Assembly (NCBI RefSeq): GCF_012910785.2
Contig: NZ_WTVH02000010.1
Span: 1,240,001 to 1,304,000 of the forward strand
Direction: 5' to 3'
DNA length: 64,000 nt
Source of the DNA: Aromatoleum buckelii
GTDB taxonomy: Bacteria > Pseudomonadota > Gammaproteobacteria > Burkholderiales > Rhodocyclaceae
A program made the position numbers and the translations under genes. Below, one piece after another: positions 7,055 through 40,920 of the stretch. Within the stretch, counting starts at the first letter, position 1. Each line of letters begins with the position of its first letter. The notes beneath the pieces were generated by a model that worked only from the letters and a program-made list of their open reading frames with translations, had not been told where the DNA came from and did no database searches.

Positions 7055-9406
<2,352 letters not shown>

Positions 9407-9526
9407 GAGGGAATCAATGGCCGAGAAGGCGGCAAGCGGCCGCCGGGCAAAGGACGCGATGGTGCAACAACCGGCCGCATCGCCGCAAGCGCCGCGGGGG
9501 CCCCCTGGCCGCGCCTGTTGCCGCCG

Positions 9527-10375
9527 TCACAGTGCGATCAGGGTTTGCCGCCCGTACCACTGCTCGCCGGCGTCGAGCTCGATCCGGCGGCGTGCGGCCG
9601 CGGCTTCGACGCACAGCATGTGCCGGAAGCCGTTGGCCGGCATGTCGGGCAGTTGGGCGCAGCGCTGTTCCCACGGGTTCCACACCACGACGTCCGGAAA
9701 GCCTTCGACGTTGATGCCGAGGCTGCGCCCGCCGTCGCGCAGCAGCAGCGGGCGCTGCACGTCGTGATAGACGCGGTCGGTCTCGGCTTCGACGACGAGC
9801 GCATCGCCGCTGTCGCGCTTGATCCGGTCGTTGTCGGCGGCGTCGCGGTATTCGTGGCCGTGCAGGCCTTCGAGACGGGCGTTCTCGACTTCGCCGACGC
9901 GCAGGTAGGTGTGCAGCGCGGCGGTGAACGCAAACGGCGCGTGGCCGGTGTTCCCGACTTCGAGCTCGACGCCGAGGCGATCGCCCTCGATGATCACCGT
10001 GATCTCGGCGGAGAAGCGCTGCGGCCACGCCGCGTAGCTCGCATCGTCTTCGCTCGTCGTCAGCGTCACCAGCGCGAAGTCGTCGCCGCTGCGCTGCTCG
10101 CCGACGGTCCACGGCCGCGTGCGCAGGAGGCCGTGCTTCGGCAGCCTGCCGAGCGCGGCGAACTGCGGAAAGCACACTGGAATGCCACCGCGGATCGGCG
10201 TGCTGCCGTCGTGGCGCGCCTGCGGACTGAGGTACAGCCACTCGCTGCCGCCGGCCGGGGTCCAGGACAGCACCTGGGCGCCGAACAGCGAGACGACCGC
10301 GTGCGCGCCGCCCGGCGTGCGCAGGACGAGCGCGGGTTGATCGTGGAAAGTGCGTGTTTCGATGGATGCGGGCAT
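9527..10375 (-). CDS. D-hexose-6-phosphate mutarotase (YeaD-like aldose 1-epimerase family)
   Basis: A 282-residue protein of the galactose mutarotase-like fold, YeaD branch. Typical motifs are HAVVSLFGAQVLSWTP, PIRGGIPVCFPQFAALG, KHGLLRTRPWTV, the catalytic-region segment ALHTYLRVG, and FPDVVVWNPWEQRCAQLPDMP near the end. The family interconverts alpha and beta anomers of hexose 6-phosphates in the cytoplasm. The start is the ATG at 10375 (MPASIETRTF); the frame is open further upstream, but that part overlaps the preceding acetyltransferase gene. It lies 62 bases behind that gene on the same strand. Confidence 0.9.
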   Translation of the reverse strand: MPASIETRTFHDQPALVLRTPGGAHAVVSLFGAQVLSWTPAGGSEWLYLSPQARHDGSTPIRGGIPVCFPQFAALGRLPKHGLLRTRPWTVGEQRSGDDFALVTLTTSEDDASYAAWPQRFSAEITVIIEGDRLGVELEVGNTGHAPFAFTAALHTYLRVGEVENARLEGLHGHEYRDAADNDRIKRDSGDALVVEAETDRVYHDVQRPLLLRDGGRSLGINVEGFPDVVVWNPWEQRCAQLPDMPANGFRHMLCVEAAAARRRIELDAGEQWYGRQTLIAL

Positions 10376-10437
10376 GAGCGGGGAAACTGGGATCGGTCGT
10401 GGGGGAGCAGCGTTTCGGGGCAGTCCTGGGGGGTCAG

Positions 10438-13359: not shown

Positions 13360-15084
13360 TCATCCGCCGAGCGTGAAATAGAAGCTCGCGCCCTCGCCGG
13401 GCTTCGACTTCGCCCAGATCTGCCCGCCGTGGCGCTCGATGATGCGGTAGGTCGTCGCGAGGCCTATCCCGGAGCCCGGAAAATCGGTGCCGGTGTGCAG
13501 GCGGTGAAAGGCGCGGAACAGGTTGTTCGCAAACGTCATGTCGAAGCCCACGCCATCGTCGGTGACGCAGAACACTCGCTGGCCCAGATCGCGCCTGGCC
13601 GTCAGCGAGATGTGCGCGACCTCGTTGCGCGAAGAAAACTTCCACGCGTTGCCGAGCAGATTCTGCAGCGCGAGCTGCATCAGTCCGCGGTCGGCCCTCA
13701 CGATCAGGTCCCTTGTTATCTCCACCTCGACGCGCCGCTCCGGCTCGTTCCGGCGCAGCTCGTCGATGATCTGGATCGCGAGTTCCGACAGATCGAAAGT
13801 TTCCTTCTGCAGCGAATGGCGCGCCAGGTGCGCGAGCTTGATCAGGTCGTCGATGAGGTGGGACATGCGCATGCCGGCCTTGCGGATCCGTACGATATGG
13901 TCCCGCGCGTTCGGCTCGACGCGGTCGCCGAGTTCTTCCTCGAGGATGCGGGCGAACCCGTCGATCGCGCGCAGCGGCGCGCGCAGGTCGTGGGACACCG
14001 AATACGAAAACGCTTCGAGCTCGCGGTTCGCCGCTTCCAGTTCCGCGGTGCGGACGCGCACCCGCGACTCGAGCTCGCGATTGAGATTGCGCAGTGTCAT
14101 CTCGGCGATCTTGCGCGCCGAGATGTCGAACAGCGTTCCCGCCAGGCCGCGCGGCGCCGTGTCTTCTTCGTTGCCGTGGTCGACGCGACGCGCGGTCGCC
14201 TCGACCCAGCGTATCTCGCCGTTTCGCGTCAGCAGCCGCAATTGGGCGGTCCACGCCGGGAGTTCCAGCCGGTGGACCAGCGATATCTGGTGCTCCGCCG
14301 CGACGCGGTCGTCCGGGTGGAAGTGATCGACCAGCGCGGTGTCGAGGCTCTCCGTCAGCGTGTAGCCGGTGATCGATTCCCAGCCCCGGTTCAGGAACGT
14401 CAGCCGGCCGTTTTCGTCGGTACGGAAAATGATCTCGTTGACCGAGTCGATCAGCTCGCGATAGCGCACCTGGTTCTCGCGCAGCGACTGTTCGGACTCG
14501 ACCCGCTCCGTGATGTCCCGCCCGATGCCGTGGTAACCCGCGAAGCTTCCGTCGCGGTGGAGCGGGCGCCCGACCAGTTCGAGATAGCGGCGCCTCCCGG
14601 TGCTGTCGCGCCGGCATAGCGTCAGGCTCAGCGGCGCCTGCTGCACGAGGCTCTCACGCCAAGCCTCGCGGCTTTGCGCTGCCGTGTCCCCGCAGTCGAG
14701 CTCCCACGGCGTGTGCCCGATAAACTCCATCGGGTCGATTCGCGAGCGCTCCTGCAGGCCGGGGGTAATGTGGACATAGCGGTGCTGGGCGTCAGTCTTC
14801 CATTGCCAGTCCGACGACAGGTCGAGCAGTTCGACGAGTTCGGCGGAATCGAAGCCGGCGACGCCGAGCGCTTCGACGGCAGGCGGCGGGCGCCGGAAAA
14901 CATGCCAGGCGAACAGGGCGACGAGAACCAGGAGCAGGCCTGCGAGCGGCGCGGCCAGCGGCAACGCGGAGGCGAACAGTGGCGGGTGGGCCAGCAGTGG
15001 GGAGGAAGTCATCAGCGCCGCCGCGAGTGCCGCACCGGCAAGTCGACGCGCCCACGACGGAAAAGACTCATGAGACGTTTTCAC
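13360..15084 (-). CDS. Membrane PAS-PAS sensor histidine kinase
   Basis: A 574-residue sensor kinase. Two hydrophobic segments lie near residues 10-30 and 40-62 (LAAPLAGLLLVLVALFAWHV), so it is membrane anchored with little periplasmic sequence. Two PAS domains follow: the first around DLSSDWQWKTDAQHRYVHI to YHGIGRDITERV, the second around LIDSVNEIIFRTDENGRLTF to GTLFDISARKIAE. The H-box is FSYSVSHDLRAPLRAIDGF, with the phosphorylated His in SHDLRAP. The ATPase part shows NLLGNAWKFSS (N box), DDGVGFDM (G1) and GSGIGLAT (G2). No response regulator is adjacent, so its partner is probably encoded elsewhere. The start is GTG at 15084. Confidence 0.9.
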   Translation of the reverse strand: MKTSHESFPSWARRLAGAALAAALMTSSPLLAHPPLFASALPLAAPLAGLLLVLVALFAWHVFRRPPPAVEALGVAGFDSAELVELLDLSSDWQWKTDAQHRYVHITPGLQERSRIDPMEFIGHTPWELDCGDTAAQSREAWRESLVQQAPLSLTLCRRDSTGRRRYLELVGRPLHRDGSFAGYHGIGRDITERVESEQSLRENQVRYRELIDSVNEIIFRTDENGRLTFLNRGWESITGYTLTESLDTALVDHFHPDDRVAAEHQISLVHRLELPAWTAQLRLLTRNGEIRWVEATARRVDHGNEEDTAPRGLAGTLFDISARKIAEMTLRNLNRELESRVRVRTAELEAANRELEAFSYSVSHDLRAPLRAIDGFARILEEELGDRVEPNARDHIVRIRKAGMRMSHLIDDLIKLAHLARHSLQKETFDLSELAIQIIDELRRNEPERRVEVEITRDLIVRADRGLMQLALQNLLGNAWKFSSRNEVAHISLTARRDLGQRVFCVTDDGVGFDMTFANNLFRAFHRLHTGTDFPGSGIGLATTYRIIERHGGQIWAKSKPGEGASFYFTLGG

Positions 15085-15344
15085 AGTGTTTTCGTCGGAG
15101 TGAGTCGGGATCGAAAACTACGGATGGCCCGCGCTCGTCAGGGGAATCTTACCTGCCGGGGCGGGGGCGGGGCGCGCTATTGCCCTGAATTGTTACGCAT
15201 AAGCCGGACGGGCGGCCGAGTCGACTGCCCGAATCGGGTTGTGAACGCGCTAGCGGCGGCGCCGCCGAAGAGGCCTCGTCATGCCGCGGGGGGCCGGCTA
15301 GAATCGATGCCGCCCGCACCGGAAAACGACAGAAAGGAAACCCG

Positions 15345-15911
15345 ATGACCGCTCCCCCTGATTCAGCCGTTGCCGATCCTTCAGCGTGGGTTGCGCGCTT
15401 CGCGACGCTGATCCCCGCCGGTGGGCGAGTGCTCGACTTCGCGTGCGGACGCGGTCGGCATGCGCGCTGGCTGGCCCGCCACGGCTGGGAGGTCGAGGCA
15501 GTGGACCGGGATGCGGCGGCGCTGGCGACGTTCGCCGGCGAGCCGCGCGTCAGCGTCGCGCAGGTGGACCTCGAAAACGGGGACTGGCCTTACGGGACCG
15601 CGTGCTTCGACGCGATCGTCGTGACCAATTATCTCTACCGGCCGCGTCTCGAACTGCTGCTCGACTGCCTCGCTGCCGACGGCGTGCTGATCTACGAAAC
15701 CTTCATGCTCGGCAACGAGCGCTTCGGCCGGCCCGGCAACCCGGAGTTTCTGCTGCGCCCCGGCGAACTGCTCGAACGCCTCGCCGGTGATTACACGATC
15801 GTCGCGTTCGAGCAGGGCGAAGTCGCCCGGCCGCGCCCGGCGGTCGTGCAGCGCGTGTGCGCCGTCAAGGGGCAGGGCATCACGGTGTTGCCGGATCGGC
15901 CACCCGAGTAA
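15345..15911 (+). CDS. Class I SAM-dependent methyltransferase (TehB/UbiE-like fold), substrate unknown
   Basis: A 188-residue single-domain methyltransferase. Motif I is VLDFACGRGRHARWLA, with the acidic residue of motif II at VEAVDRD. Later family positions are VDLENGDWPYG, FDAIVVTNYLYRP and GVLIYETFMLGNERFGRP. The family is common in proteobacteria but substrates are mostly unproven. A role in detoxification or small-molecule methylation is possible, and I assign none. Its 3' end overlaps the 3' end of the convergent mnmH by 32 bases. The upstream 260-base gap is shared with the divergent histidine kinase. Confidence 0.8.
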   Translation: MTAPPDSAVADPSAWVARFATLIPAGGRVLDFACGRGRHARWLARHGWEVEAVDRDAAALATFAGEPRVSVAQVDLENGDWPYGTACFDAIVVTNYLYRPRLELLLDCLAADGVLIYETFMLGNERFGRPGNPEFLLRPGELLERLAGDYTIVAFEQGEVARPRPAVVQRVCAVKGQGITVLPDRPPE

Positions 15912-16974
15912 GCGCTTCGGGCAGCGCCGCGGCGGCAGCGAGTATGCGCCGTGCCAGCGCCTCGATGCCGGCCGGCGACAGATCGTCGCTCGTGAAGATC
16001 GGCGCGCTCGGAAAACGGGTGAAATTCCTGTTCTGCGAGCGGTGGTAGAGCGGATCGTAGTGCAGCTCGATGAACTCGGCGAAAAGCGTCGGCAGGTCGT
16101 GCGCCGCGGCAAGGGTCTTCCAGCGTTCCAGCGTCTCGTTGCTCTGCAGGCCCTTGAGGAAGTCGATTTTCTTCTGCAGGTCGGCGATGTCGTCGCCGAG
16201 GTACGCGTAGTCGCGCACGAGGAACTCGAGGCGCGCTTCGCGGCTGGCCTCGATCGCGACGCAGGGGCTCGCGCGCATGTGCCGGATCAGCGCCTCGGGC
16301 ACCTGGATGCGGCCGATCTTGCGGCTTTCGGCTTCGACGAACACTGGCCGGGCCGAGTCGAGCGCATGCAGCGTGCGGAACAGTTCGGTTTCGAACGATT
16401 TCTGCGTCGGCTGCGGGCGGTCCGGCAACGCGCCGAGCACCGAGCCCTTGTGCGCGGCGAGATGCTCGAGATCTAGCACCTGCGCGCCGAGCTTTGCCAG
16501 CGCGTCGAGGACGCGCGTCTTGGCGCTGCCGGTCGCGCCGCACACCACCCGCAGGTCGAAGCGCGCCGGGAGCTCTTCGAGTTCCGCGACCACCATCCGC
16601 CGCCACGTCTTGTAGCCGCCTTCGAGCTGGCACGCATCCCAGCCGATCAGCCGCAGCCAGGTGACGAACGCGCCGCTGCGCTGGCCGCCGCGCCAGCAAT
16701 ACACCAGCGGCCGCCAGTTCTTCGGCTTGTCGTGGAAGCGGGTTTTCAGGTGATGCGCGATGTTCTCGGCGACCATCGCCGCGCCGACGCGCCGTGCCTC
16801 GAACGCGGACTGCTGCTTGTAGATCGTGCCGACGACGACACGCTGCGCGTTGTCGAGCACCGGGCAGCTGATCGCGCCGGGAATGCGGTCTTCGTCGAAT
16901 TCCGCCGGGCTGCGGGCGTCGATGATCTCGTCAAAGGCGGACAGCTGTGCTACGGTCGCGATGCCTTTTTTCAT
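15880..16974 (-). CDS. mnmH: tRNA 2-selenouridine synthase MnmH (SelU)
   Basis: A 364-residue protein. The N-terminal rhodanese domain carries the catalytic cysteine in YCWRGGQRSGAF near residue 92. The C-terminal P-loop domain follows (VVCGATGSAKTRVLDAL). It converts the wobble 2-thiouridine of tRNAs for Lys, Glu and Gln to 2-selenouridine via a geranylated intermediate, using selenophosphate. The start ATG at 16974 (MKKGIATVAQL) was chosen over an in-frame upstream start because it begins the rhodanese fold. The selD gene that makes selenophosphate starts 55 bases away in the opposite direction, which strongly supports the function. The P-loop has Ala where Gly is usual (GSAKT). Confidence 0.93.
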   Translation of the reverse strand: MKKGIATVAQLSAFDEIIDARSPAEFDEDRIPGAISCPVLDNAQRVVVGTIYKQQSAFEARRVGAAMVAENIAHHLKTRFHDKPKNWRPLVYCWRGGQRSGAFVTWLRLIGWDACQLEGGYKTWRRMVVAELEELPARFDLRVVCGATGSAKTRVLDALAKLGAQVLDLEHLAAHKGSVLGALPDRPQPTQKSFETELFRTLHALDSARPVFVEAESRKIGRIQVPEALIRHMRASPCVAIEASREARLEFLVRDYAYLGDDIADLQKKIDFLKGLQSNETLERWKTLAAAHDLPTLFAEFIELHYDPLYHRSQNRNFTRFPSAPIFTSDDLSPAGIEALARRILAAAAALPEALTRVADPATP

Positions 16975-27215: not shown

Positions 27216-28016
27216 ATGATCGACCTGCATTGCCACATGCTCCCGGGCATCGACGACGGGGCGGCCGATCTTGCGACTGCGCTCGAAATGGCGCGCATCG
27301 CCGCGGCCGACGGCATCACCGTCGTCGCCTGCACGCCGCACATCTATCCGGGCATGTTCGACAACGACAGCGCCGGCATCGCCGCGGCGATCGACGCGCT
27401 GCAGCGGGAAATCGACGCGGCCGGAATCCCCCTGCGGCTGACCTGCGGCGCCGACGCGCACGTCACGCCGGAGCTGCTGTCGCGGCTCAAGACGGGCAGC
27501 GTTCCGCGGCTTGGCGACAGTCGCTATTTTCTCCTCGAACCGCCGCACCACGTCGCGCCGCCGCGCTTCGAGGAGTTCGTCTTCAACCTGCTCGCGTCGG
27601 GCTATGTGCCCGTCGTCACCCACCCGGAACGGCTGACGTGGATCGAAAACCACTACCCGATGTTCGGCGAACTGGTCCGCTCGGGAGCGTGGATGCAGGT
27701 GACTTCCGGCAGCCTCACCGGGCGCTTCGGCAAAGAGGCGAAATACTGGGGCGAGCGCATGCTCGACGAAGGGCTCGTGCATATTCTCGCGACCGACGCG
27801 CACAGCGCGCGGCGCCGTCCGCCGTTGCTCGCGGAAGGCCGGGCGGCAGCCGAGCGCCGGGTCGGTACCGACGAAGCATGCAATTTGGTCGAGGTCCGGC
27901 CCGCGGGTATACTCCGCGACCTTTCGCCCGAGAAACTGCCGCCGTTGCCGCAAACCCGCCGTTCTTCGGCGAGTGGGCGTGCCGGCTTCTTCAACCGGCT
28001 GTTTCGACGGCGTTAA
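27216..28016 (+). CDS. PHP-family tyrosine-protein phosphatase (CpsB/YwqE type)
   Basis: A 266-residue PHP-domain phosphatase. Metal-binding motifs are IDLHCHMLPGIDDG at the start, ACTPHIYPGMFDN, VVTHPERLTW and ATDAHSARRR. CpsB/YwqE enzymes remove phosphate from the tyrosine-rich tail of the polysaccharide co-polymerase kinase. The wzc-type kinase with such a tail is encoded two genes downstream, so this gene takes the Wzb role. The C-terminus is basic (GFFNRLFRRR), which could aid membrane contact; that is speculation. It begins 25 bases after the tRNA and is the first exopolysaccharide gene. Confidence 0.9.
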   Translation: MIDLHCHMLPGIDDGAADLATALEMARIAAADGITVVACTPHIYPGMFDNDSAGIAAAIDALQREIDAAGIPLRLTCGADAHVTPELLSRLKTGSVPRLGDSRYFLLEPPHHVAPPRFEEFVFNLLASGYVPVVTHPERLTWIENHYPMFGELVRSGAWMQVTSGSLTGRFGKEAKYWGERMLDEGLVHILATDAHSARRRPPLLAEGRAAAERRVGTDEACNLVEVRPAGILRDLSPEKLPPLPQTRRSSASGRAGFFNRLFRRR

Positions 28017-28106: not shown

Positions 28107-28811
28107 ATGCGTGTTTACCTTGCAGGCGTGATGTTGTCCTGCGCAATGATTTCGTCGTCCCCGGTTCATGCCCAAGCGACGTCCGCGCCGGCGCCCCTGG
28201 CGTCGGTCCTGCCATCGGCAGGCACCGCGCTCGACGACCCGGGCCCGCTGTTCGACGATTACTACATCGGCCCGTACGACTTGCTCGAAATCACCGTCTT
28301 CCAGGTCGACGACCTGTCGCGCACCGTGCGCGTCAACGCGCGCGGCTTCATCGGGCTGCCGCTGATCGGGCAGATCCAGGCTGCGGGGCTGAGCGCGCGC
28401 GTCGTCGAAGAGGAGATCGCGCGGCGCCTCACCGAGTGCTGCCTGCAGGACCCGCAGGTCACGATCTTCATCAAGGAGTTCGTCAGCCAGCGCGTGACCG
28501 TCGAAGGCGAAGTGACCAAGCCGGGCATTTTCCCGCTGTCCGGGCGCACGTCGCTGTTGCAGACGATCGCGCTCGCTGCCGGCGTCAGCGAGATCGCCGA
28601 CGTCAACCAGGTCAGCATCTTTCGCACGCTGGCCGACGGCAACAAGGAGCAGCTGGTGTTCGACCTCGAAGCGGTGCGCGCCGGCAAAGTCGATGACCCG
28701 CTCATCCAGGGCAACGACGTCGTCGTCGTCGGCAGCTCGACGGCTCGGTCGATGGTCAAAAGCGTGACGGGCACCCTGCGCGGCTTCATCGGCTTCGGCA
28801 CCGTCCGCTAG
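28107..28811 (+). CDS. Polysaccharide export protein, Wza/EpsE type
   Basis: A 234-residue secreted protein with an N-terminal signal sequence ending SSSPVHA. The Poly_export domain starts at YYIGPYDLLEITVFQVDDLSRTVRVNARGFIGLPLIG. A SLBB-like domain contains VTVEGEVTKPGIFPLSGRTSLLQTIALAAG. Wza-type proteins form the outer-membrane export channel of capsule systems. This one is much shorter than E. coli Wza (379 residues) and lacks the long C-terminal helix, as in EpsE-type proteins. A Cys at residue 12 does not sit in a convincing lipobox. It lies between the phosphatase and the Wzc kinase. Confidence 0.92.
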   Translation: MRVYLAGVMLSCAMISSSPVHAQATSAPAPLASVLPSAGTALDDPGPLFDDYYIGPYDLLEITVFQVDDLSRTVRVNARGFIGLPLIGQIQAAGLSARVVEEEIARRLTECCLQDPQVTIFIKEFVSQRVTVEGEVTKPGIFPLSGRTSLLQTIALAAGVSEIADVNQVSIFRTLADGNKEQLVFDLEAVRAGKVDDPLIQGNDVVVVGSSTARSMVKSVTGTLRGFIGFGTVR

Positions 28812-28853: not shown

Positions 28854-31148
28854 ATGATGGACAACACAGAAAAGCCGGACGCCGGCGACGAGCGCCGGCA
28901 GGAAGTTCCTCGCCGCAACGCGTTGGTCGAGCGCCGCGAAAGCACCGCGCTCGCGCACCCCACCGAATGGCGTTCCCATGTCGAGGAGGACGACGACGAC
29001 ACGATCGACCTGCGCGCGATCTGGGACACCATCGTCAAGCGCAAATGGACGGTGATCACGTTCTTCGCCATCGTCATGGTGTCGGTGCTGACCGCGACTT
29101 TCCTGATGACGCCGATCTACCGCGCGAGCCTCACGTTGCAGATCGAGCGCCAGGAAGCCAAGGTGCTCGACTACCAGGGCGTCACGCCCAATGAAATGCA
29201 GGGCGACACCAAGGACTTCTACGAGACGCAGTACGAGCTGCTCCGGAGCCGTTCGCTGGCGCAGCGCGTCATCGACCAGCTCAACCTCGGCGACCACCCG
29301 GTTTTCGCCGGAGCTAATCCGTCGCTGCTCGCCAGCATCAAGGGGCTTTTCGTAGGCGAGGAAGAGGAGGCAGAGGCGGTCGAAGGCGACGCCGAGCAGA
29401 TCCGCAAGCTCAAGCTGACGAAAGCTTTCCTCGCAAACCTGACGATCGAGCCGGTGCGCAATTCGCGCCTCGTCAAGATCCATTTCGACAGCCCTGACCC
29501 GGTGCTCGCGAGCCGCATCGTCAACGCGATCTCCGAAGCTTTCATCAACGTCAACCTCGAGCGGCGCATGGATGCGTCGTCGTTCGCGAAGGTATTCCTC
29601 GAAGAGCGGCTGCAGCAGTTGAAGGTGAAGCTCGGCGAAACCGAGAAGGAACTCGTCGCGTTCGCGCGCGAGGAACAGATCGTCCGCGGCGGCGAGCAGG
29701 AAGCGAGCGTCGACACCCAGGTGATGCAGGAATTCACGACTGCGCTGGCCAAGGCGCAGCAGGAGCGCATCCGCGCCGAAGCGATGTACCAGCAGCTCGA
29801 AAGCGGCAGCGTCGAAGGCATCCCGCAGGTGCTCGAAAACAAGGTGATCCAGGAGTTCAAGGGCCACAAGGCGAAGCTTGAAACCGAGTATCAGGAAAAC
29901 CTCAAGATCTACAAGCCCGGCTATCCGAAAATGATTCAGCTGCAAAGCCAGATCGACGAGATGCAGGCCAAGATCGCCGAGGAACTCGCTCACGTGCGCA
30001 GCGGCATCAGCAGCGCCTACCAGGCGGCGCGCGCGCAGGAGGCGATGCTGCAGGCGAAGATGGACGAGAGCAAGCGCACCGTGCTCGGCGTGCAGGATCG
30101 CAGCATCCAGTACAACATCCTCAAGCGCGAAGTCGACACCAACCGCCAGCTGTACGACGGCCTGCTGCAGCGCTACAAGGAAGTCGGCGTCGCCGGCGGC
30201 GTCGGCGTGAACAACGTGTCGGTCGTCGACAAGGCCGAAGTCCCGCTCCAGCCGTTCAAGCCGAAAACGCTGCTCAACGCGCTGATCGCTGCGCTGCTCG
30301 GGCTGTTCGGCGGCATCGGCCTGGCGCTGCTGTTCGAACACCTCGACGACACGATCAAGGACGGCGAAAGCATGGAACGCCTGCTCGGCCTGCCGGTGCT
30401 CGGCATGGTGCCGCTGATCAAGCGTGCCAGCGACTCGGCGCGCGAGCTCGTGCTCGAACAGCTCGACGACTCGCGCTCGGGCTTCTCTGAAGCATATCGT
30501 TCGCTGCGAACCGCAATGCAGTTCTCGACGCAGGACGGGATACCGAAAGTCCTGATGGTTACCAGCGCGTCGATGGGCGAAGGCAAGAGCACCACCGCGT
30601 TGGCGCTGGCGATCAACCTGTCGCAGATGGGCCTCAAAGTGCTGCTCGTGGACGCCGACCTGCGCAAGGCCTCGATGCACCGCAAACTCGGCATACCCAA
30701 CACGGCAGGGCTGACGAACTACCTGGCGGGCGATTCCCGGCCGGTCGACGTCACGCAGCCGACGCCCTATGACAAGCTCTTCGTAATCACGTCCGGGCCG
30801 CTGCCGCCGAACCCGGCGGAACTCCTCGGCAGCGCCAAGATGGTCGCGCTGCTCGACGTCGCCAAGGACCGTTTCGACTGCGTCATCGTCGACGGCCCGC
30901 CGGTGCTCGGGCTCGCCGACGCGCCGCTGCTCGGCAGCATCACCGACGCGACGGTCGTCGTCGTCGAAGCGGGCGGCACGCGCAAGGACTTCCTCGCCGG
31001 CGCGCTCAAGCGCCTGCGCAGCACGCGCACCCACGTTATCGGCGGCGTGCTGACGAAGATCGCATCCCGCAGCGGTGCCCAGGGCTACTACTACAACTCC
31101 TACTACCAGTACGGCGGCGAAGCCGAAGGCAGTCGTTCCGCGGCATGA
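28854..31148 (+). CDS. wzc: Wzc-type polysaccharide co-polymerase and BY-tyrosine kinase
   Basis: A 764-residue fused co-polymerase/kinase. A Wzz domain starts around IDLRAIWDTIVKRKWTVITFF, with its first membrane helix near residues 60-85. A long coiled-coil periplasmic region follows, then the second helix ALIAALLGLFGGIGLALLFEHLDD near residue 480. The BY-kinase domain has Walker A SASMGEGKSTTALAL, Walker A' VLLVDADLRKASMH and Walker B CVIVDGPPVLG. The tail GYYYNSYYQYGG carries the autophosphorylated tyrosine cluster. It controls polymer length and export through phosphorylation, reversed by the phosphatase at 27216. Its stop overlaps the next start in ATGA. The start is ATG 28854 or 28857. 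Confidence 0.95.
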   Translation: MMDNTEKPDAGDERRQEVPRRNALVERRESTALAHPTEWRSHVEEDDDDTIDLRAIWDTIVKRKWTVITFFAIVMVSVLTATFLMTPIYRASLTLQIERQEAKVLDYQGVTPNEMQGDTKDFYETQYELLRSRSLAQRVIDQLNLGDHPVFAGANPSLLASIKGLFVGEEEEAEAVEGDAEQIRKLKLTKAFLANLTIEPVRNSRLVKIHFDSPDPVLASRIVNAISEAFINVNLERRMDASSFAKVFLEERLQQLKVKLGETEKELVAFAREEQIVRGGEQEASVDTQVMQEFTTALAKAQQERIRAEAMYQQLESGSVEGIPQVLENKVIQEFKGHKAKLETEYQENLKIYKPGYPKMIQLQSQIDEMQAKIAEELAHVRSGISSAYQAARAQEAMLQAKMDESKRTVLGVQDRSIQYNILKREVDTNRQLYDGLLQRYKEVGVAGGVGVNNVSVVDKAEVPLQPFKPKTLLNALIAALLGLFGGIGLALLFEHLDDTIKDGESMERLLGLPVLGMVPLIKRASDSARELVLEQLDDSRSGFSEAYRSLRTAMQFSTQDGIPKVLMVTSASMGEGKSTTALALAINLSQMGLKVLLVDADLRKASMHRKLGIPNTAGLTNYLAGDSRPVDVTQPTPYDKLFVITSGPLPPNPAELLGSAKMVALLDVAKDRFDCVIVDGPPVLGLADAPLLGSITDATVVVVEAGGTRKDFLAGALKRLRSTRTHVIGGVLTKIASRSGAQGYYYNSYYQYGGEAEGSRSAA

Positions 31149-32704
31149 GCGCAGCCGGGGAGGCGGGCAGGGGAGGCGCGGCGGCCCTCGCGCAGGCGGT
31201 GTTCGCCGAGCCGACGCGTTTCGGCGAGCTGGTGCGCGGCGGCGGAGCGCTGCCGGCGGACACCCTCGTCGTCATGCGCACCGCAGCCGAAGCGGTGCGC
31301 GACGGCAGGCAGCACGGGCTGGACGAGCACCGGCGCGCGGCGCTGTTCTTCGTCGAGCACGTGCTGCTGGCATACGAAGCGGACCATTACCGCGTTCTCG
31401 GCCTGACCCGGGACGCGACGGCCGACCAGATCCGCGAGCACTACCGCGTCATGATGGGCATCTTCCATCCGGACCGTCAGGGATGGGCCGACAGCGACCG
31501 GGAAAAACTGTCCGCGCGGATCAACCTCGCGCACCACGTGCTGCGGGACGATCAGCGTCGCGCCGCGTACGACCTTGAGCGGACTCAAGCCCGCCCGCGG
31601 GTGTCGGTCTCGATCAGGATCGTCTCGCAGGCGGAACGCAAACGCGCTGCCGGCGCCGCCCCCACCCTGACCGAAAGACTGCCGCTGACCATGCGGCGGA
31701 ATTTTCCGCAGTACGTGCTCGGCAGCGTCGCGCTCGTCGGCTTCGTCGCCGTCCTCGCCGTCTATCTCAATCGCGCCCCAGCCGGCGCCATCGGCGCATC
31801 CCGGCCATCCCCGAAAGCCCCGGTCGCGGCCGCTCCCGCCGAACGTGCCGCCCCGGTTACGCCGGCTCTCGTGGCTCCGCCGCTGGCCAAGTCGGCAGAA
31901 GCCGCGCCCATGAAAGTGCCAGAAGCTGCCCGGCCGAAGGTGATGCCCGCGGCGGCGCAAAAACCGCCCGGTGCCGCCAACATCCCGGCGCCTGCAAGCG
32001 CCGTCACTGCGGATCGGGCACCGGTAGAAACGCCGCCCGTCGCAGCCATCTTCTCGGCTCGCGAGCCCGTGCCCGAGCCCGAAGCGGCCCCCGCCGTTCG
32101 CACCGCGCGTCCGCCCGCCGTCGTCGACAAACCGCTCGAAGTCGCCGCAGCGCCTGTCGCACTTCCGCCGCCGCGCCCGCTTCTGCAGCCGGAAACGCAG
32201 GCGGAAAAGCAGGCAGAAGCGCAGGGGGAAACGCAGCCCTCGCCAGTCCAACTCATTCCCGCACCCGCACTCGCACCCGCACGTGCCGCGGAAGCGCCCG
32301 CTCCCGCGACCCCGCCCGCCGAAGCACCCGTTCCCCCCGGCCTGACGGCGTCGGACGCCGCGCGCGTGTTGGGCCAGTTCTCGTCGTCGTATCAGCTAGG
32401 CGACATCGAGCGCTTCATGAAGCTGTTCACCGAAGATGCCCGCTCCGGAACCGGCCGCAGGGCGCAGATCCGCAAGGACTACGAGCAGCTGTTCAGCTCG
32501 ACCCAGGCGCGGCGCATCGAACTCATCGACATGCGCTGGTCGCCGGACAGCGCTTCGTTGCGCGGCGAGGGTGGTTATCTGGTGCGCATCCGGCGCGGGG
32601 ACGGCGTCGGCGAGGAAGTGTTCGCCGGATCGATCCGCATGGAGCTCACCCGGCGCGGCCAGGACGTGCTCATCAGCGGCCTGTTCCACAAACCTTCCGA
32701 CTGA
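31145..32704 (+). CDS. Membrane-anchored J-domain protein with C-terminal NTF2/SnoaL-like domain
   Basis: A 519-residue protein coupled to wzc by an ATGA overlap. Residues ~80-135 form a J-domain (DHYRVLGLTRDATADQIREHYRVMM, then the essential HPD tripeptide in GIFHPDRQGW). J-domains stimulate DnaK-type chaperones. A single membrane helix lies near residues 190-208 (YVLGSVALVGFVAVLAVYL), so the J-domain should face the cytoplasm. About 190 residues of Pro/Ala-rich linker follow, crossing the periplasm. The last ~110 residues (DAARVLGQFSSSYQLGDIERFMKLFTEDAR ... LISGLFHKPS) look like an NTF2/SnoaL-type fold. I know of no established function for this combination. Position suggests a role in assembly or quality control of the export machine. 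Confidence 0.85.
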   Translation: MSAAGEAGRGGAAALAQAVFAEPTRFGELVRGGGALPADTLVVMRTAAEAVRDGRQHGLDEHRRAALFFVEHVLLAYEADHYRVLGLTRDATADQIREHYRVMMGIFHPDRQGWADSDREKLSARINLAHHVLRDDQRRAAYDLERTQARPRVSVSIRIVSQAERKRAAGAAPTLTERLPLTMRRNFPQYVLGSVALVGFVAVLAVYLNRAPAGAIGASRPSPKAPVAAAPAERAAPVTPALVAPPLAKSAEAAPMKVPEAARPKVMPAAAQKPPGAANIPAPASAVTADRAPVETPPVAAIFSAREPVPEPEAAPAVRTARPPAVVDKPLEVAAAPVALPPPRPLLQPETQAEKQAEAQGETQPSPVQLIPAPALAPARAAEAPAPATPPAEAPVPPGLTASDAARVLGQFSSSYQLGDIERFMKLFTEDARSGTGRRAQIRKDYEQLFSSTQARRIELIDMRWSPDSASLRGEGGYLVRIRRGDGVGEEVFAGSIRMELTRRGQDVLISGLFHKPSD

Positions 32705-32835: not shown

Positions 32836-33369
32836 TTATTCCCCGCTGATCGGATCGTCGTTGTGATTGTCGCCGCCACGGCCCCTGCTATGCTTCCTGC
32901 CCTCGCGGCTCATGCCGACCGTGGCCCCAGCCAAGACTGCGCCGCCGCCGATGATCGCTCCCATGCCGGAACTCAGACCCGCGAGGCTGCCACCCGACAG
33001 CCCCGTCCCGCCTGCCGGCTGCGGCGCGCCGATTGCGGCGGCATATTTCACGGGTTCAGGGTTGGCCGACAGCGGACCCGTCGCGCAGACATCCACGCCG
33101 CCAATCGCCAGCACCGCGTTTTCCTTCAGGCTGGTCACGCAACCTTCGGAAAACGCGACGTCGGCCTTCGACCCCTTCAGCGTGATGACGCGGTCGCCTT
33201 CGACCAGCGTCGAGCCGGCCTTGGCGACCGTGTAGTCCTTCCCCTTGTGGATCAGCACCTTCCCGTCGACGTTCGTCAGCGCTGCAACCTGCAGCGGCTC
33301 GGCGGCGTGGGCGGCGCCCATCGTGCCGACCAGGGTGATTGCGGCGGCAACTCCGGTGATCTTCTTCAT
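32836..33369 (-). CDS. Secreted FecR-like protein with glycine-rich tail
   Basis: A 177-residue exported protein with signal peptide MKKITGVAAAITLVGTMGAAHA. A compact beta-rich segment (VDGKVLIHKGKDYTVAKAG, then GDRVITLKGSKADVAFSEGC) matches the FecR-domain pattern of small periplasmic sensors. It lacks the inner-membrane part of true anti-sigma FecR proteins. The C-terminal half is Gly/Ala-rich, including a hydrophobic stretch (GAIIGGGAVLAGATVG), and ends in a charged HSRGRGGDNHNDDPISGE tail. The function is not known. It is convergent with the J-domain gene and lies 60 bases downstream of a TPR gene on the same strand. Confidence 0.75.
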   Translation of the reverse strand: MKKITGVAAAITLVGTMGAAHAAEPLQVAALTNVDGKVLIHKGKDYTVAKAGSTLVEGDRVITLKGSKADVAFSEGCVTSLKENAVLAIGGVDVCATGPLSANPEPVKYAAAIGAPQPAGGTGLSGGSLAGLSSGMGAIIGGGAVLAGATVGMSREGRKHSRGRGGDNHNDDPISGE

Positions 33370-33429
33370 TTTTCGGCCTCTTGGTGAATTCGATGTAACA
33401 AAACTTTGGGACGAAAGGTACACGGCGGG

Positions 33430-34692
33430 TCAGCGAGCGTCAAGCCGTTCGATCACGATGTCATCGAACCAGATCGGCCCGCTGGCGTCGAAGTCCAGCG
33501 CGACGCGGCCACCGAGCTGCAGCCGCAGCACCTGTGCCGCACAATCGGTGGCGGGGACGGTGAAAGTCGTCTCGAACTTGCGCCATGCCGAGCGGCCGGA
33601 AAAATGCTCCGTGACGCCGATCTGCCGCTCGCGCGCGCCGACGCACGAAACCGCCCACGCCAGTCCCGGTTCCGCTTCCAGCCCGTCCGGGCGCACCCGG
33701 CCGCGCAGCGCGTAGCTCCCCGGTTCCAGCATCAGATGCTGGCTCAGGTGGCGGTAGCGCACGCGCGGGCCGCGAAACACGACGTTCAGCGCGGCGGCGC
33801 CGGTTGCGCCGGAAGTCGGCAGCGGCTCGACCAGAACGTGACCCGCTTTCGCGCTCACCCAGTCGAAGCCGACGCCCGATAGCGGCTGTTCGAAGCCGCC
33901 ATTGAACACGTTGCCCATTCCTTCGAGCTGCTCGACCGGCAGCGCATTCATCCACGCCAGCCGCGCATCGAGCCACAGCCCTTCGCGCTGCAGGCGCCGC
34001 AGCACCGCCGCGAGGCCGGGGCCCTGCAGCGAGTTCGCCGCGCTCGCTTCCGACAGCGCATACAGCGCCATCACCGTTTCGAGCCGCTCGCCCTTGTTCG
34101 CCGCGAATCCGACGAACGCCGGCCACCACGCGACGGGCTCAGTAAGCAGCGCGGAGAACGCCGCCCGGTTCGCGGGTTCGTCTGCGATGCGCAGCAGCTC
34201 CGGGAACGTTGCCGCGCGCAGGCTGCCACGGCGCGTCAGCGCGACGCTCGAGTGGCGCAGCGCCGCGGCGAGATCGTTGCGCCCGAGCTCGAACCCGGCC
34301 GCGATCAGGCGTACATCCACTTTCGCCGGCGCGAAGGCCGCCGCCGCGTCGATCGCGCTCCTCGCCCGCCGCGCGTCGCCGGCCTTTTCCCACAGCGCGC
34401 CGAGCAACGCGTACGACAAACCGTAAGTCGGGTCGGCGCGCACCGCCCGCTGCAGCAGCGCCACCGCCCGCTGCGGGTCGGCGTCGAGCAGCTGCCGCGC
34501 GTCGCGGGTCAGCGCGATCGGATGTTCCACGCCCGGCATTTCGGTCGCGGCCACCGTTTCGCCGGCATCGGCGTAGTGGTCGGCGAGGTTCAGCGTGACG
34601 ATCCGCCACGCCGCGAGTGCAGCGAACAGCGCGAAAGCGAACCACTTGGCGAGGTTGAGCGGATGCGTGAAGGGGAGTGGGCGTTTTGACAT
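33430..34692 (-). CDS. Membrane-anchored tetratricopeptide-repeat protein with C-terminal carbohydrate-binding-like domain
   Basis: A 420-residue protein. An N-terminal membrane anchor lies at residues ~15-33 (WFAFALFAALAAWRIVTL). TPR-like helices start at ARQLLDADPQRAVALLQRAVRADPTYGLSYALLGALWEKAGDARRAR. The C-terminal ~150 residues form a predicted beta-sandwich (FNGGFEQPLSGVGFDWVS ... LEPGSYALRGRVRPDG ... GPIWFDDIVIERL) resembling carbohydrate-binding modules of the CBM4/9 type. Such TPR proteins occur in exopolysaccharide clusters and may scaffold assembly in the periplasm; that is inference. The start ATG at 34692 was chosen to include the anchor. Confidence 0.75.
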   Translation of the reverse strand: MSKRPLPFTHPLNLAKWFAFALFAALAAWRIVTLNLADHYADAGETVAATEMPGVEHPIALTRDARQLLDADPQRAVALLQRAVRADPTYGLSYALLGALWEKAGDARRARSAIDAAAAFAPAKVDVRLIAAGFELGRNDLAAALRHSSVALTRRGSLRAATFPELLRIADEPANRAAFSALLTEPVAWWPAFVGFAANKGERLETVMALYALSEASAANSLQGPGLAAVLRRLQREGLWLDARLAWMNALPVEQLEGMGNVFNGGFEQPLSGVGFDWVSAKAGHVLVEPLPTSGATGAAALNVVFRGPRVRYRHLSQHLMLEPGSYALRGRVRPDGLEAEPGLAWAVSCVGARERQIGVTEHFSGRSAWRKFETTFTVPATDCAAQVLRLQLGGRVALDFDASGPIWFDDIVIERLDAR

Positions 34693-34881: not shown

Positions 34882-35217
34882 TCACCCGAGGGCGGCGAGG
34901 GCTGCCTCGGGTGCCTTGTCCAGTATTTTGAGCAAGGCTTTCGCCGCCCCTGTCGGGCAGCGCTTGCCCTGTTCCCAGTTGCGGACGGTGTCGAGCGGAA
35001 CATCGATCCGCGCAGAAAACTCCGCCTGGCTCAAGCCAAGACGTTTACGGACCCGGCGGGCGAATTTTGCGGCATCCTGCATCGCCATCGCTTCGTCGGC
35101 AGCCTGCTGCGCGGCAATATCTTCTTCACTGGTAGCGTCCACGCGAGCAGAATCAATGCGTCCGCCAGCCAGCGAAGCCGGAACAGCAGGGTCAATCTTC
35201 ACGCGTACTGTCTTCAT
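34882..35217 (-). CDS. XRE-type antitoxin of a BrnT-like toxin pair
   Basis: A 111-residue helix-turn-helix protein (ARRVRKRLGLSQAEFSARIDVPLDTVRNWEQGKRCPTGAAK) with an acidic N-terminal half that would wrap a toxin. Its start ATG at 35217 lies inside the end of the upstream BrnT-like gene (overlap 26 bases), as in type II toxin-antitoxin operons. Classic BrnA antitoxins are ribbon-helix-helix, so this pair is the variant with an XRE regulator. It should repress its own operon and neutralise the toxin. Confidence 0.82.
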   Translation of the reverse strand: MKTVRVKIDPAVPASLAGGRIDSARVDATSEEDIAAQQAADEAMAMQDAAKFARRVRKRLGLSQAEFSARIDVPLDTVRNWEQGKRCPTGAAKALLKILDKAPEAALAALG

Positions 35218-35473
35218 AGTGTCGAACCTCTCGCTGGTTGGCCTTGCGTGCGGAGATGATGCGCAGCGTGTCATAACGGAGCGTATAGACCACAACGAAT
35301 AGACGCTGTTCGATCCTCCCCATCAACTGGTACCGTTCTTCGCCATAGCTGTGACGGGTGTCGGCCTGAACCGTGCGATCCGGATCGAAAAACGCCCGCG
35401 CAGCGTAGGCGAAATCGAACCCGCGCTCGCGAAAGCACGCTTCGCTCTTGACTTCATCCCACTCGAAATTCAT
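35192..35473 (-). CDS. BrnT-family toxin (ribonuclease)
   Basis: A BrnT protein of about 93 residues starting MNFEWDEVKSEACFRERGFDF; an alternative start six codons upstream is possible. Family motifs are AYAARAFFDPDRTVQAD, the RHSYGEERYQLMGRI segment and LRIISARKANQREVRHY. BrnT toxins are RelE-fold ribonucleases that block translation. Toxin-first order with an overlapping downstream antitoxin is typical of this family. Confidence 0.87.
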   Translation of the reverse strand: MNFEWDEVKSEACFRERGFDFAYAARAFFDPDRTVQADTRHSYGEERYQLMGRIEQRLFVVVYTLRYDTLRIISARKANQREVRHYEDSTRED

Positions 35474-35647: not shown

Positions 35648-35968
35648 TCATTCCTCAAACAATTCGGAGTGCGTGCCCGCGCGCACAAAGATGATGGCGG
35701 TGCCATCGAGCCGGTAGATCAGCAGGAAGTCGCCGCCGATGTGACACTCGCGATGATCGGCCCAGTCGCCCTTCAACGGATGGTCCAGCCACTCGGGGCT
35801 CAGCGGCGCATCGTTGGCGATTAGCAGCAGCATCGCCTCCTTCAACCGCTTCAGGTCGTAGCGGCCCGAGCGGGAGAGGCGTTCCCAGTCTTTGAGGAAG
35901 GTCCTGGTGTAGTCACACGCCCTCGGCAGCGGCGCCCGTTTACTGCTGGCGGGCTTTTTCGAGGTCAT
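35648..35968 (-). CDS. YafQ-like mRNA interferase toxin
   Basis: A 106-residue RelE-superfamily toxin of the YafQ type. It contains YTRTFLKDWERLSRSGRYDLKRLKEAMLLL, then HPLKGDWADHRECHIGGDFLLIYRLDG, and ends FVRAGTHSELFEE. The conserved HPLKG...CHI...DFLLIY...TH.ELF pattern carries the catalytic His and Asp residues. It cleaves mRNA on the ribosome. Its 5' end overlaps the 3' end of the relB/dinJ-type antitoxin by 29 bases, so the antitoxin is translated first. Confidence 0.9.
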   Translation of the reverse strand: MTSKKPASSKRAPLPRACDYTRTFLKDWERLSRSGRYDLKRLKEAMLLLIANDAPLSPEWLDHPLKGDWADHRECHIGGDFLLIYRLDGTAIIFVRAGTHSELFEE

Positions 35969-36218
35969 CGACCAAGGCATCAGCAGAGCCAAAACGGGTG
36001 GCACGGGCCTTCGTCATTGCGCGGGCTTCTTCCATCGCCGCACGGGTTTCGGCGTTGGGCACCTTTAGTTCCAGCGGAAAAGCCTGGTCGTTGACCACGC
36101 GCTTGAGCAGGATGCGCACGGCATCCGACATGGACAGCCCCATCGCTGCCAGTGCCTCGCTGGCTTGCGTCTTGATTTCGTCGTCCACCCGGATGTGCAG
36201 CATCGTGGAACGAGCCAT
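35940..36218 (-). CDS. RelB/DinJ-family antitoxin
   Basis: A 92-residue RelB/DinJ protein beginning MARSTMLHIRVDDEIKTQASEALAAMGLSMSDAVRILLKRVV, the ribbon-helix-helix DNA-binding part. A C-terminal tail (ARATRFGSADALVDDLEKARQQ) wraps the toxin. It neutralises the YafQ-like toxin encoded immediately after it and represses the operon. A GAGGATC sequence before the start can serve as ribosome-binding site. Confidence 0.9.
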   Translation of the reverse strand: MARSTMLHIRVDDEIKTQASEALAAMGLSMSDAVRILLKRVVNDQAFPLELKVPNAETRAAMEEARAMTKARATRFGSADALVDDLEKARQQ

Positions 36219-39421: not shown

Positions 39422-39511
39422 GGCGTCATCGCCGCTAACCGCTTCCGCGGCAATCTCGCCGACGTGACCAACAAGGTGCGCTGCTGCGATCGGTGCGGCC
39501 CGGACTGCTGA
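39395..39511 (+). other. Short cysteine-rich ORF repeating the TviB N-terminus (38 residues)
   Basis: ATG at 39395 gives [17 protein letters not shown] and ends KVRCCDRCGPDC, stopping five bases before the nuclease start codon. The nuclease has no clear ribosome-binding site, so coupling to this ORF is possible. Whether it is a leader peptide or recombination debris cannot be told from sequence. Confidence 0.45.
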
Positions 39512-39516
39512 CTTCC

Positions 39517-40920
39517 ATGCTCGCCCTCACTCACCACGGCGCCGTCACCGGCGTCACCGGCTCCTGCCACGAACTCACCCTGCACGGCCCCGGGGGAGCA
39601 AAAGGGGGGATGCTGGTCGATTGCGGCATTTTCCAGGGCAGCGAAGCCGCGGGGCGCAGCAACGCCGATGAACTGGCCGTCGACTTCCCGCTTGCGCACG
39701 TTCGCGCGCTGGTCGTCACGCACGTCCATATCGACCACGTCGGGCGCATCCCGCATCTCCTCGCGGCCGGCTTCGACGGGCCGATCCTGTGCTCGCCGCC
39801 TTCGGCGTTGATGCTGCCCGAGATCCTCGAAGACGCGCTCAAGATCGGCTTCACCCGCGACGCCCGCCTCATCGAGCGCGTGCTCGACCGCATCCGCGCC
39901 CGCATCGTGCCGGTGCCTTTCGACCAGTGGCATACCGTGTTCAACGACGGCGCCGGCCGGCTCGCGATCCGCCTGCAGCGCGCCGGCCACATCCTCGGCT
40001 CGGCCTACGTCGAGTGCGACGCCACCACCGTTGCCGAACGCGAACGCATCGTCTTTTCCGGTGACCTCGGCGCGCCCGACTCGCCCTTGCTGCCCGAACC
40101 GCGCCCGCCCGAGCGCGCCGACCGCCTCGTCATCGAAGCCACTTACGGCGACCGCGACCACGAAGACCGCGCCACCCGCCGCCACCGCCTGCAGGCCGTG
40201 CTCGAACACGCGCTGGCCGACGGCGGCACCGTGCTGATCCCGGCTTTCGCGATCGGCCGCACGCAGGAACTGCTCTACGAAATCGAAGACATCATCTTCG
40301 AAGCCGGCGACGACCCGCGCTGGAAGCAGCTCGACATCGTCGTCGATTCGCCGCTCGCGGCCGAATTCACCCGTCTCTACCGTAACCTCAAGCCGTACTG
40401 GGACGAAGAGGCCATCGAACGCGTCCGCCAGGGCCGCCACCCGCTGTCCTTCGACCAGCTGCTCGTCCTCGACCGCCACGAAGACCACCTGAAAGCGGTC
40501 GACTACCTCACCCGCACCGGCCGCCCCGCCGTCGTCATCGCCGGCTCGGGCATGTGCGCCGGGGGCAGGGTGGTGAACTACCTCAAGGCGATGCTCGGCG
40601 ACGCGCGCAACGACGTGCTCTTCGTCGGCTACCAGGCCGCCGGCACGCCGGGCCGCGACATCCTCACCTTTGGTCCGCGCGGCGGCTGGGTCATGCTCGA
40701 CGGCGAGCGCCACCCGATCCGCGCGCAGATCCACCAAGTGGGCGGCTATTCCGCGCATGCGGGGCAGTCTGATCTGTTGAGGTTCGTCACCGGGATTCCG
40801 CAGTTGCCCGCGGAGATCCGCATCGTGCATGGCGACGACGAAGCGAAGGCGGCGCTCAAGCGCAAGCTGGAAGAAGGGGGCGTGGCGAATGTGCGGGTGC
40901 CTGGCAGTCAAGAAACCTGA
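39517..40920 (+). CDS. Metallo-beta-lactamase/beta-CASP nuclease (RNA-processing exonuclease family, YSH1-like)
   Basis: A 467-residue protein. The zinc-binding motif [14 protein letters not shown] is near residue 72. [10 protein letters not shown] and [13 protein letters not shown] (motif 4 Asp) follow, then [10 protein letters not shown]. The beta-CASP insert has [18 protein letters not shown]-terminal motifs are [19 protein letters not shown] and [16 protein letters not shown]. Proteins of this group resemble eukaryotic CPSF-73 and bacterial RNase J relatives and act on RNA. It is unusual inside an exopolysaccharide locus; a role in message processing there is only inference. ATG 39517 is preferred over an in-frame GTG at 39493. 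Confidence 0.88.

Follow-up and report, generated by a model that had tools for sequence, protein, structure and literature searches.

Membrane-bound J-domain proteins (J proteins) with a tie to bacterial capsule formation are exemplified by DjlA of E. coli, which can induce the Rcs/colanic acid response and is described to activate the Rcs capsule relay via DnaK, the J-domain being required, and upon overproduction to act on the IgaA-RcsD pair (PMC11709261). The present analysis concerns a J protein encoded directly behind wzc, the gene of a polysaccharide co-polymerase and tyrosine autokinase, in a stretch of 64,000 nucleotides from Aromatoleum buckelii (contig NZ_WTVH02000010.1, positions 1,240,001 to 1,304,000; hereafter the window). 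Judged by sequence, it is a membrane-anchored J protein of class C (J-domain only) with an unusual, NTF2-like C-terminal domain and a recurrent place behind wzc. As in DjlA, a single membrane helix and a cytosolic J-domain coincide with a capsule tie; DjlA, however, is arranged in the order helix, TerB-like domain and C-terminal J-domain (PMC11709261), whereas the window protein begins with the J part, ends with the NTF2-like domain and is encoded by a gene overlapping wzc. This opposite domain order and a score of 16 bits against the NCBIfam DjlA model (cut-off 162) distinguish it from DjlA.

A J protein/Hsp70 pair needed for polysaccharide output, as proposed below, is also described for cyanobacteria, where DnaK1/DnaJ3 are required for hormogonium polysaccharide (PMC9239167). 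In contrast to the system proposed here, this pair is placed at type IV pilus motors, no client being identified and no link to Wzc given there (PMC9239167). For Wzc itself, a cycle has been proposed in which the dephosphorylated octamer alternates with phosphorylated monomers (PMC8285477), and the Wza-Wzc channel is described to span the envelope (PMC12881504). An accessory protein acting on Wzc is known with RmpD, which binds Wzc, but unlike the J protein is described as a small protein (PMC10294653). Accessory C-terminal NTF2-like domains in envelope proteins are present in the LD-carboxypeptidases Csd6, Pgp2 and Bd1075. To our knowledge, RmpD has neither a J- nor an NTF2-like domain. For Bd1075, targeting is ascribed to the NTF2 domain, and the one of Pgp2 reportedly binds fragments of peptidoglycan (PMC8938487). 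Unlike these carboxypeptidases, the window protein carries no LD-transpeptidase/LD-carboxypeptidase-type catalytic Pfam domain at an expectation value (E) <= 1. A paper joining a J protein with Wzc was not found in searches of the open-licence PubMed Central literature, judged by title and start of abstract, in line with the first-pass annotation of this DNA, which was made from its letters and knew of no described function.

Architecture and selection of the J protein

The gene and its parts are as follows (all on the + strand).

31145..32704, +, J-domain/membrane helix/NTF2-like protein of 519 amino acids, ATGA overlap with wzc (open reading frame, Pfam, AlphaFold2, structural matches)
31145..31378, +, pre-J helical domain, residues 1-78, with helices 3-21, 40-52 and 61-74 (AlphaFold2; conserved in family alignments)
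31379..31579, +, J-domain, residues 79-145 (Pfam DnaJ; ratio of mean non-synonymous to mean synonymous divergence, dN/dS, 0.12)
31466..31474, +, codons of the His-Pro-Asp (HPD) motif, H108, P109 and D110 (translation)
31712..31768, +, single membrane helix, residues 190-208 (hydropathy; AlphaFold2 helix 187-210)
31772..32344, +, Pro/Ala-rich linker, residues 210-400, of low AlphaFold2 confidence and fast evolving
32345..32701, +, NTF2/SnoaL-like C-terminal domain, residues 401-519, predicted periplasmic (AlphaFold2, structural matches, Pfam)

The architecture read by the first-pass annotation, i.e., a J-domain with HPD, one membrane helix, a Pro/Ala linker of ~190 residues and a C-terminal domain, is borne out by Pfam, hydropathy and AlphaFold2. 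Pfam DnaJ matches residues 80-143 (E 5.7e-14, 52.4 bits versus a cut-off of 27.8) with the HPD motif located in the loop after helix II, the top hydrophobic stretch comprises residues 190-208 (mean Kyte-Doolittle value 2.34), and Pro plus Ala account for 52 % of residues 210-400. A conserved helical pre-J domain at about residues 3-78 had been missed. Matches to DnaJ models are confined to the J segment, the full-length models remaining far under cut-off, and scans with Pfam and NCBIfam models yielded no Gly/Phe plus zinc-finger DnaJ core. In the AlphaFold2 model, run on a 17-row alignment (leaving out L128, which has an unknown base), the pre-J, J and C-terminal domains are confident and the linker is disordered; the mean predicted local distance difference test score (pLDDT) is 67 and the predicted template modelling score 0.36, the latter being low because of the linker.

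The C-terminal domain is modelled as helices 402-418 and 421-425, a strand (428-434), a further helix (439-452) and four long strands extending to residue 517, with block pLDDT values of 77-95. Its best structural match is the NTF2-like 3rob (Z 17.6, root-mean-square deviation (rmsd) 2.2 A over 121 residues), while NTF2 itself (1oun) reaches Z 16.1 (rmsd 1.7 over 112); the rest of the 50 structural matches listed presumably share the same fold, judging by their titles. Thus, an NTF2/SnoaL fold, as suspected from the letters, is predicted with good confidence. The first Foldseek match is Bd1075 (E 5.5e-7; Z 15.4, rmsd 2.0 over 115), a likeness of fold and not a proof of kinship, many other NTF2 structures having equal or higher Z. 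Pfam SnoaL_2 is sub-threshold for the window domain (E 0.093) and matches 40 of 51 family NTF2 domains at E <= 0.1 (best 1.8e-7); the Cds6_C NTF2-like model (PF24125) does so for five of the 51 (best 0.013), the window domain not being among them. The family profile weakly touches the N-terminal part of low-affinity penicillin-binding proteins (E 2e-4) and ketosteroid isomerase (E 5e-4). A modular domain family is defined that Pfam covers weakly. All 51 domains carry the same three residues, Tyr 416, Arg 456 and Trp 465 in window numbering, which would suit a pocket or a core; an enzyme signature was not noticed, no search aimed at one having been made.

The NTF2-like domain probably lies outside the cell membrane, on the periplasmic side. 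This is favoured by stand-alone NTF2 copies, the start of which resembles a signal peptide by eye, within the same clusters at two loci from one genus (L090, L094). In 41 of 50 proteins with both a J-like and an NTF2 part (near-copies counted), more positive charge is present in the 15 residues preceding the helix than in those following it; in the window protein, the two sides are equal. This bias is in keeping with a cytosolic J side.

The overlap with wzc consists of the wzc stop codon TGA (31146-31148) and the ATG of the J gene (31145-31147); this ATGA junction is identical in all five genus genomes carrying the J gene, corroborating the overlap claimed earlier. Across the five genus orthologues, mean dN/mean dS is lowest for the J-domain (0.12), followed by the post-J stretch (0.16), the NTF2 domain (0.21), the pre-J domain (0.26), the 23-codon membrane helix (0.40, with few changes) and the linker (0.56). 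The J and NTF2 domains are therefore under purifying selection, and a chance open reading frame is rejected on the basis of dN/dS and the common junction. In the above 50 proteins, the linker ranges from 84 to 382 residues (median 212), being Pro/Ala-rich in some members and Glu/Gln/Arg/Lys/Leu-rich in others, and a hydrophobic stretch (at least 1.6) is present in 49; it appears that the spacer itself is kept and its sequence is not.

The possibility of an ordinary DnaJ mistaken for something special was likewise rejected, since a pre-J+J profile separates the family from other matches. In an evenly drawn phylum sample of 398 genomes, 130 have matches at E <= 1e-13 altogether; four family genomes stand at E <= 1.5e-34, covering positions 2-143, and the next match follows at 2.6e-18. 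From there on, the matches listed begin at position 57 or later with two exceptions, i.e., G369 (18-139, internal stop, E 1.2e-14) and G863 (48-139, E 2.0e-14). The plasmid collection yielded no match to the pre-J+J part at E <= 1e-8.

Distribution of the gene and of its NTF2-like domain

Among 29 named loci, a wzc homologue is located directly upstream of the J gene (at most 400 bases, same strand) in 27; of the two exceptions, L144 starts at a contig end and L149 encodes a J protein of another kind. Wza is found upstream in 22, CpsB is present in 16, the next gene downstream, likewise on the same strand, encodes a tetratricopeptide repeat (TPR) protein in 18, and a FecR-like gene lies within 4 kb in 12, all four counts being lower bounds, as many contigs end early. 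The usual gene order is CpsB-Wza-Wzc-J-TPR. In the phylum sample, a full pre-J+J member occurs in 4/398 genomes, and wzc precedes the J gene in all four (own window, L108, L201, L202). A consistent wzc link, which the first-pass annotation would have counted as support, thus extends across families and is stronger than a reader of the sequence alone could know. Within the genus, five of 17 genomes carry the J gene, and the wzc orthologue (95-100 % identity) is confined to these five; 11 of the other 12 have distant Wzc relatives (at most 33 % identity) and one has none at E <= 1e-30. This co-occurrence would add little by itself, since neighbours are expected to be gained and lost together.

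Organisms with such loci include Thiobacillus, Dechloromonas, Candidatus Competibacter, Contendobacter, Thiocystis, Thiococcus, Lamprocystis, Seongchinamella, Pseudohalioglobus, Methylosinus and a Hyphomicrobiaceae metagenome-assembled genome. Some genomes are probably the same across samples (L122 and L050, L124 and L044, L148 and L099), and L126 is split by a frame break and described as such. Four members grouping together in the tree (L146, L147, L201, L202; the first two from Alphaproteobacteria families) are all presumed to be alphaproteobacterial. These alpha-like members lack both an NTF2 match and a complete membrane helix (maximal 19-residue hydropathy after the J-domain -0.34 to 1.24), but keep HPD and the place behind wzc; their short ends with mixed hydrophobic and basic residues might touch the membrane. 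The most widely shared part is therefore the cytosolic one, and one may argue from these members that what matters most takes place in the cytosol, the tether having been added to it.

The NTF2-like domain is spread more widely. The domain itself has matches in 9 of the 150 relatives, two of them at E about 0.008 and without a J-like frame in the surrounding 20 kb. Its profile matched 3/399 genomes of the order (one weakly, E 6.4e-4) and 28/369 genomes of the class (one weakly, E 4e-5), both counts including the own genome. Of 45 NTF2-domain proteins scanned, 25 have a DnaJ match and 15 an AAA_22 match. Outside the genus, 10 of 44 proteins with the domain are encoded directly behind wzc (L043, L044, L082, L083, L090, L094, L099, L100, L105, L108) and two more within such a cluster. 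Homologues of the J protein thus do not lie mainly outside export loci, which would have spoken against the earlier reading; the NTF2 domain taken alone is a wider module specific neither to wzc loci nor to J-domains. Its fusion partners are J-like, pseudo-J and ExeA-like ATPase parts and, judged by eye, receiver-like ones. Neighbours of members away from wzc were checked at five loci (1 to 3 neighbours each): L098 lies next to a WcaJ-type and L111 next to a WecG/TagA-type transferase, i.e., beside polysaccharide genes, and L106 and L085 adjoin genes of other kinds.

Several members have special arrangements. Receiver-like cytosolic parts of the response regulator type, combined with the same membrane helix, linker and NTF2 domain, were recognized by eye in L090 (7079-9598) and L084 (7796-10015). 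Two NTF2 copies per protein occur in L093, L097, L110, L112 and L117, and genome G780 has 10 NTF2-domain matches. In L100, the gene directly behind wzc (9384-11963, +) encodes two J-like segments in succession, neither of which has HPD. In Pseudohalioglobus sediminis (L134), two paralogues are present in one export locus, both on the + strand: one with HPD behind wzc (9935-11722) and a degenerate one 4.6 kb further on (14592-15929).

Possible role at Wzc and alternatives

At about even odds (a probability of roughly 0.5), the protein is a dedicated membrane-anchored class C J-domain co-chaperone of the Wzx/Wzy-type exopolysaccharide exporter, bringing Hsp70 to Wzc and being tethered in the periplasm by its NTF2-like domain. 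The cytosolic pre-J and J parts would lie beside the kinase domains and tyrosine-rich tails of Wzc, where the J part may recruit Hsp70 (most likely DnaK) with Wzc as the putative client. Hsp70 could then help Wzc to switch between the assembled octamer and phosphorylated monomers, such that polymerisation and export can restart. Membrane helix, flexible spacer and NTF2-like domain would hold the co-chaperone at a presumed periplasmic site, the pocket probably accommodating peptidoglycan or polymer, and the neighbouring TPR protein with its domain resembling carbohydrate-binding modules (CBM) is a likely partner that may hold polymer. Since Bd1075 is placed by its NTF2 domain and that of Pgp2 reportedly binds wall fragments, the domain is, by analogy, best read as a tether. 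By a single change in HPD, a co-chaperone gene directly behind wzc would offer a genetic handle on the drive and timing of Wzc between its assembled and disassembled states; such genes are present in Thiobacillus, Dechloromonas, Chromatiaceae and Halieaceae as well as in relatives of methanotrophs and sludge bacteria, among them Candidatus Competibacter.

In favour of this reading are the recurrent place behind wzc, the low J dN/dS, the precedents of DjlA and DnaK1/DnaJ3, and the distribution of HPD. Among J-containing proteins found through the NTF2 domain, HPD is present in 6/10 at wzc (outside the genus) and in 0/15 away from wzc (Fisher p 0.0012; 0/14 and p 0.0016 without L114, the upstream side of which is off the contig). 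L049 and L108 were placed by hand as wzc-linked, wzc overlapping both and their reading frames running far back into it; a plain distance rule gave 5/9 versus 2/17 (p 0.028). The named loci were found with two patterns, one of which contains FHPDR, so that the invariance of HPD among them is biased and was not used as evidence.

Several observations weigh against a co-chaperone of Wzc. The HPD comparison counts related sequences, some of the same genus, and four places matched by the NTF2 profile (G582, two in G780, a weak one in G693) are outside every count. HPD is lost at 4/10 wzc-linked loci outside the genus, on two branches of the tree, with FWNEE, FYQDE and FYQEE as replacements plus one double J-like protein; therefore, a role at wzc can survive without HPD. 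At the position of R27 of DnaJ, which we take to be a contact with DnaK, Lys or Arg is present in 0/36 HPD members (33 with Leu, Val or Ala; one with His), and the 64,000-nucleotide window contains no Hsp70 gene. HscB-type J-domains likewise are without an R27-type basic residue, which is not a defining feature. Two full-length Hsp70 genes are located elsewhere in the genome, one of them adjoining DnaJ.

The same losses speak for a structural adaptor acting without Hsp70, a reading that has to be taken seriously even though it is rather unlikely. Pre-J and J parts would dock to Wzc or another ring protein, forming a scaffold between the cytosolic kinase ring and the periplasm, with HPD in the wzc-linked branches as a remnant or part of a docking surface. 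The fusion of a J-like part to a Walker A ATPase part in six proteins is consistent with such docking, as is the missing basic residue at R27. Of the 57 J segments in the tree (which omits L124, L148, L048, L049 and L050, included in the linker comparison), 21 are without HPD. On the other hand, its state requires three changes only, and the four alpha-like rows as well as the 11-row branch with the window all keep it, although the pattern-found named loci make up much of the tree and retention is partly biased; the J dN/dS of 0.12 also argues against this reading.

A bolder, auxilin-like form of the co-chaperone reading, which is doubtful and put forward tentatively, would have Hsp70 drive the octamer-to-monomer cycle of Wzc, with the NTF2 tether and the TPR/CBM partner telling where and when. 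If true, a chaperone would power the export of capsule or matrix in bacteria, and the broader family would amount to a set of interchangeable parts connecting a single periplasmic domain to J-domains, pseudo-J-domains, ATPases or receivers.

It is improbable that the J protein acts solely in quality control or biogenesis, folding or inserting exporter proteins made nearby (Wzc, Wzy, the TPR protein) with no role in the export cycle: the ATGA overlap suggests translation coupled with wzc and DnaK systems commonly act on nascent proteins, but the long spacer, the conserved NTF2 domain (dN/dS 0.21) and the rarity of the gene in the phylum sample would be left unexplained, Wzc exporters without a J gene having been counted in the genus only. 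Least of all do we expect a polymer or cell-wall sensor with the NTF2 domain reporting to the cytosolic part, in the sense of the polymer sensing considered in the first-pass annotation, since a variable linker of ~200 residues seems ill suited to a conformational signal and the four alpha-like members have no NTF2 sensor, even if one C-terminal domain with J-like, ATPase or receiver-like parts looks like a common input with different outputs and a CBM4-like partner adjoins.

The polysaccharide locus and neighbouring genes

The window belongs to a genome of 4.16 Mb in 10 contigs. The J gene is preceded by genes for a CpsB/CapC phosphatase, Wza and Wzc, in this order, and is followed by two convergent genes:

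27216..28016, +, CpsB/CapC PHP-type phosphatase, presumed Wzc phosphatase (domain-model matches)
28107..28811, +, wza-type outer-membrane polysaccharide export protein (domain-model matches)
28854..31148, +, wzc, polysaccharide co-polymerase and tyrosine autokinase, with Walker A GEGKS from residue 575 and the tyrosine-rich tail YYYNSYYQY
32836..33423, -, small FecR/LapA-retention-like protein (weak sub-cut-off matches), a recurrent third gene of the module
33430..34692, -, membrane TPR protein with a predicted CBM4-like C-terminal domain, convergent with the J gene in the window

Farther along, a WecA-type transferase, TviB-/TviC-like sugar nucleotide enzymes, a Wzx-like protein (Polysacc_synt family), a Wzy-like protein (oligosaccharide repeat unit polymerase family), WecB and a heparinase-like protein are encoded, completing a Wza/Wzc-type export locus with wza, wzc, phosphatase, wzx- and wzy-like genes as well as sugar genes. 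Pfam by itself is little informative on the FecR-like and TPR neighbours. The latter, modelled by AlphaFold2 with a mean pLDDT of 87, combines TPR repeats with a membrane helix and ends in a jelly roll, the best matches of which are CBM4 and CBM16 modules (for 1gui, E 1.5e-7 in Foldseek and Z 14.8 with rmsd 2.4 over 140). Sugar binding would be the obvious reading in an export locus, the fold match alone being no proof.

Elsewhere in the genome, a split weak Hsp70 match lies in a 744-residue frame (G000:C5:507868-509019) with a J-domain match ~8 kb off (C5:516698-516853), possibly representing a separate Hsp70/J pair. Within the window, an XRE/MqsA-like antitoxin-type gene (34882-35295, -) and a YafQ-like toxin gene (35648-36004, -; Pfam YafQ E 3.6e-29), ~350 bases apart, are located between the TPR and the WecA-type genes. 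The polysaccharide locus also contains a gene for a Beta-CASP metallo-hydrolase of the RNase type (39493-40917, +) with Beta-Casp and RMMBL domains, the best NCBIfam match of which is the model of the type VII CRISPR-associated Cas14 (286 bits versus a cut-off of 800).

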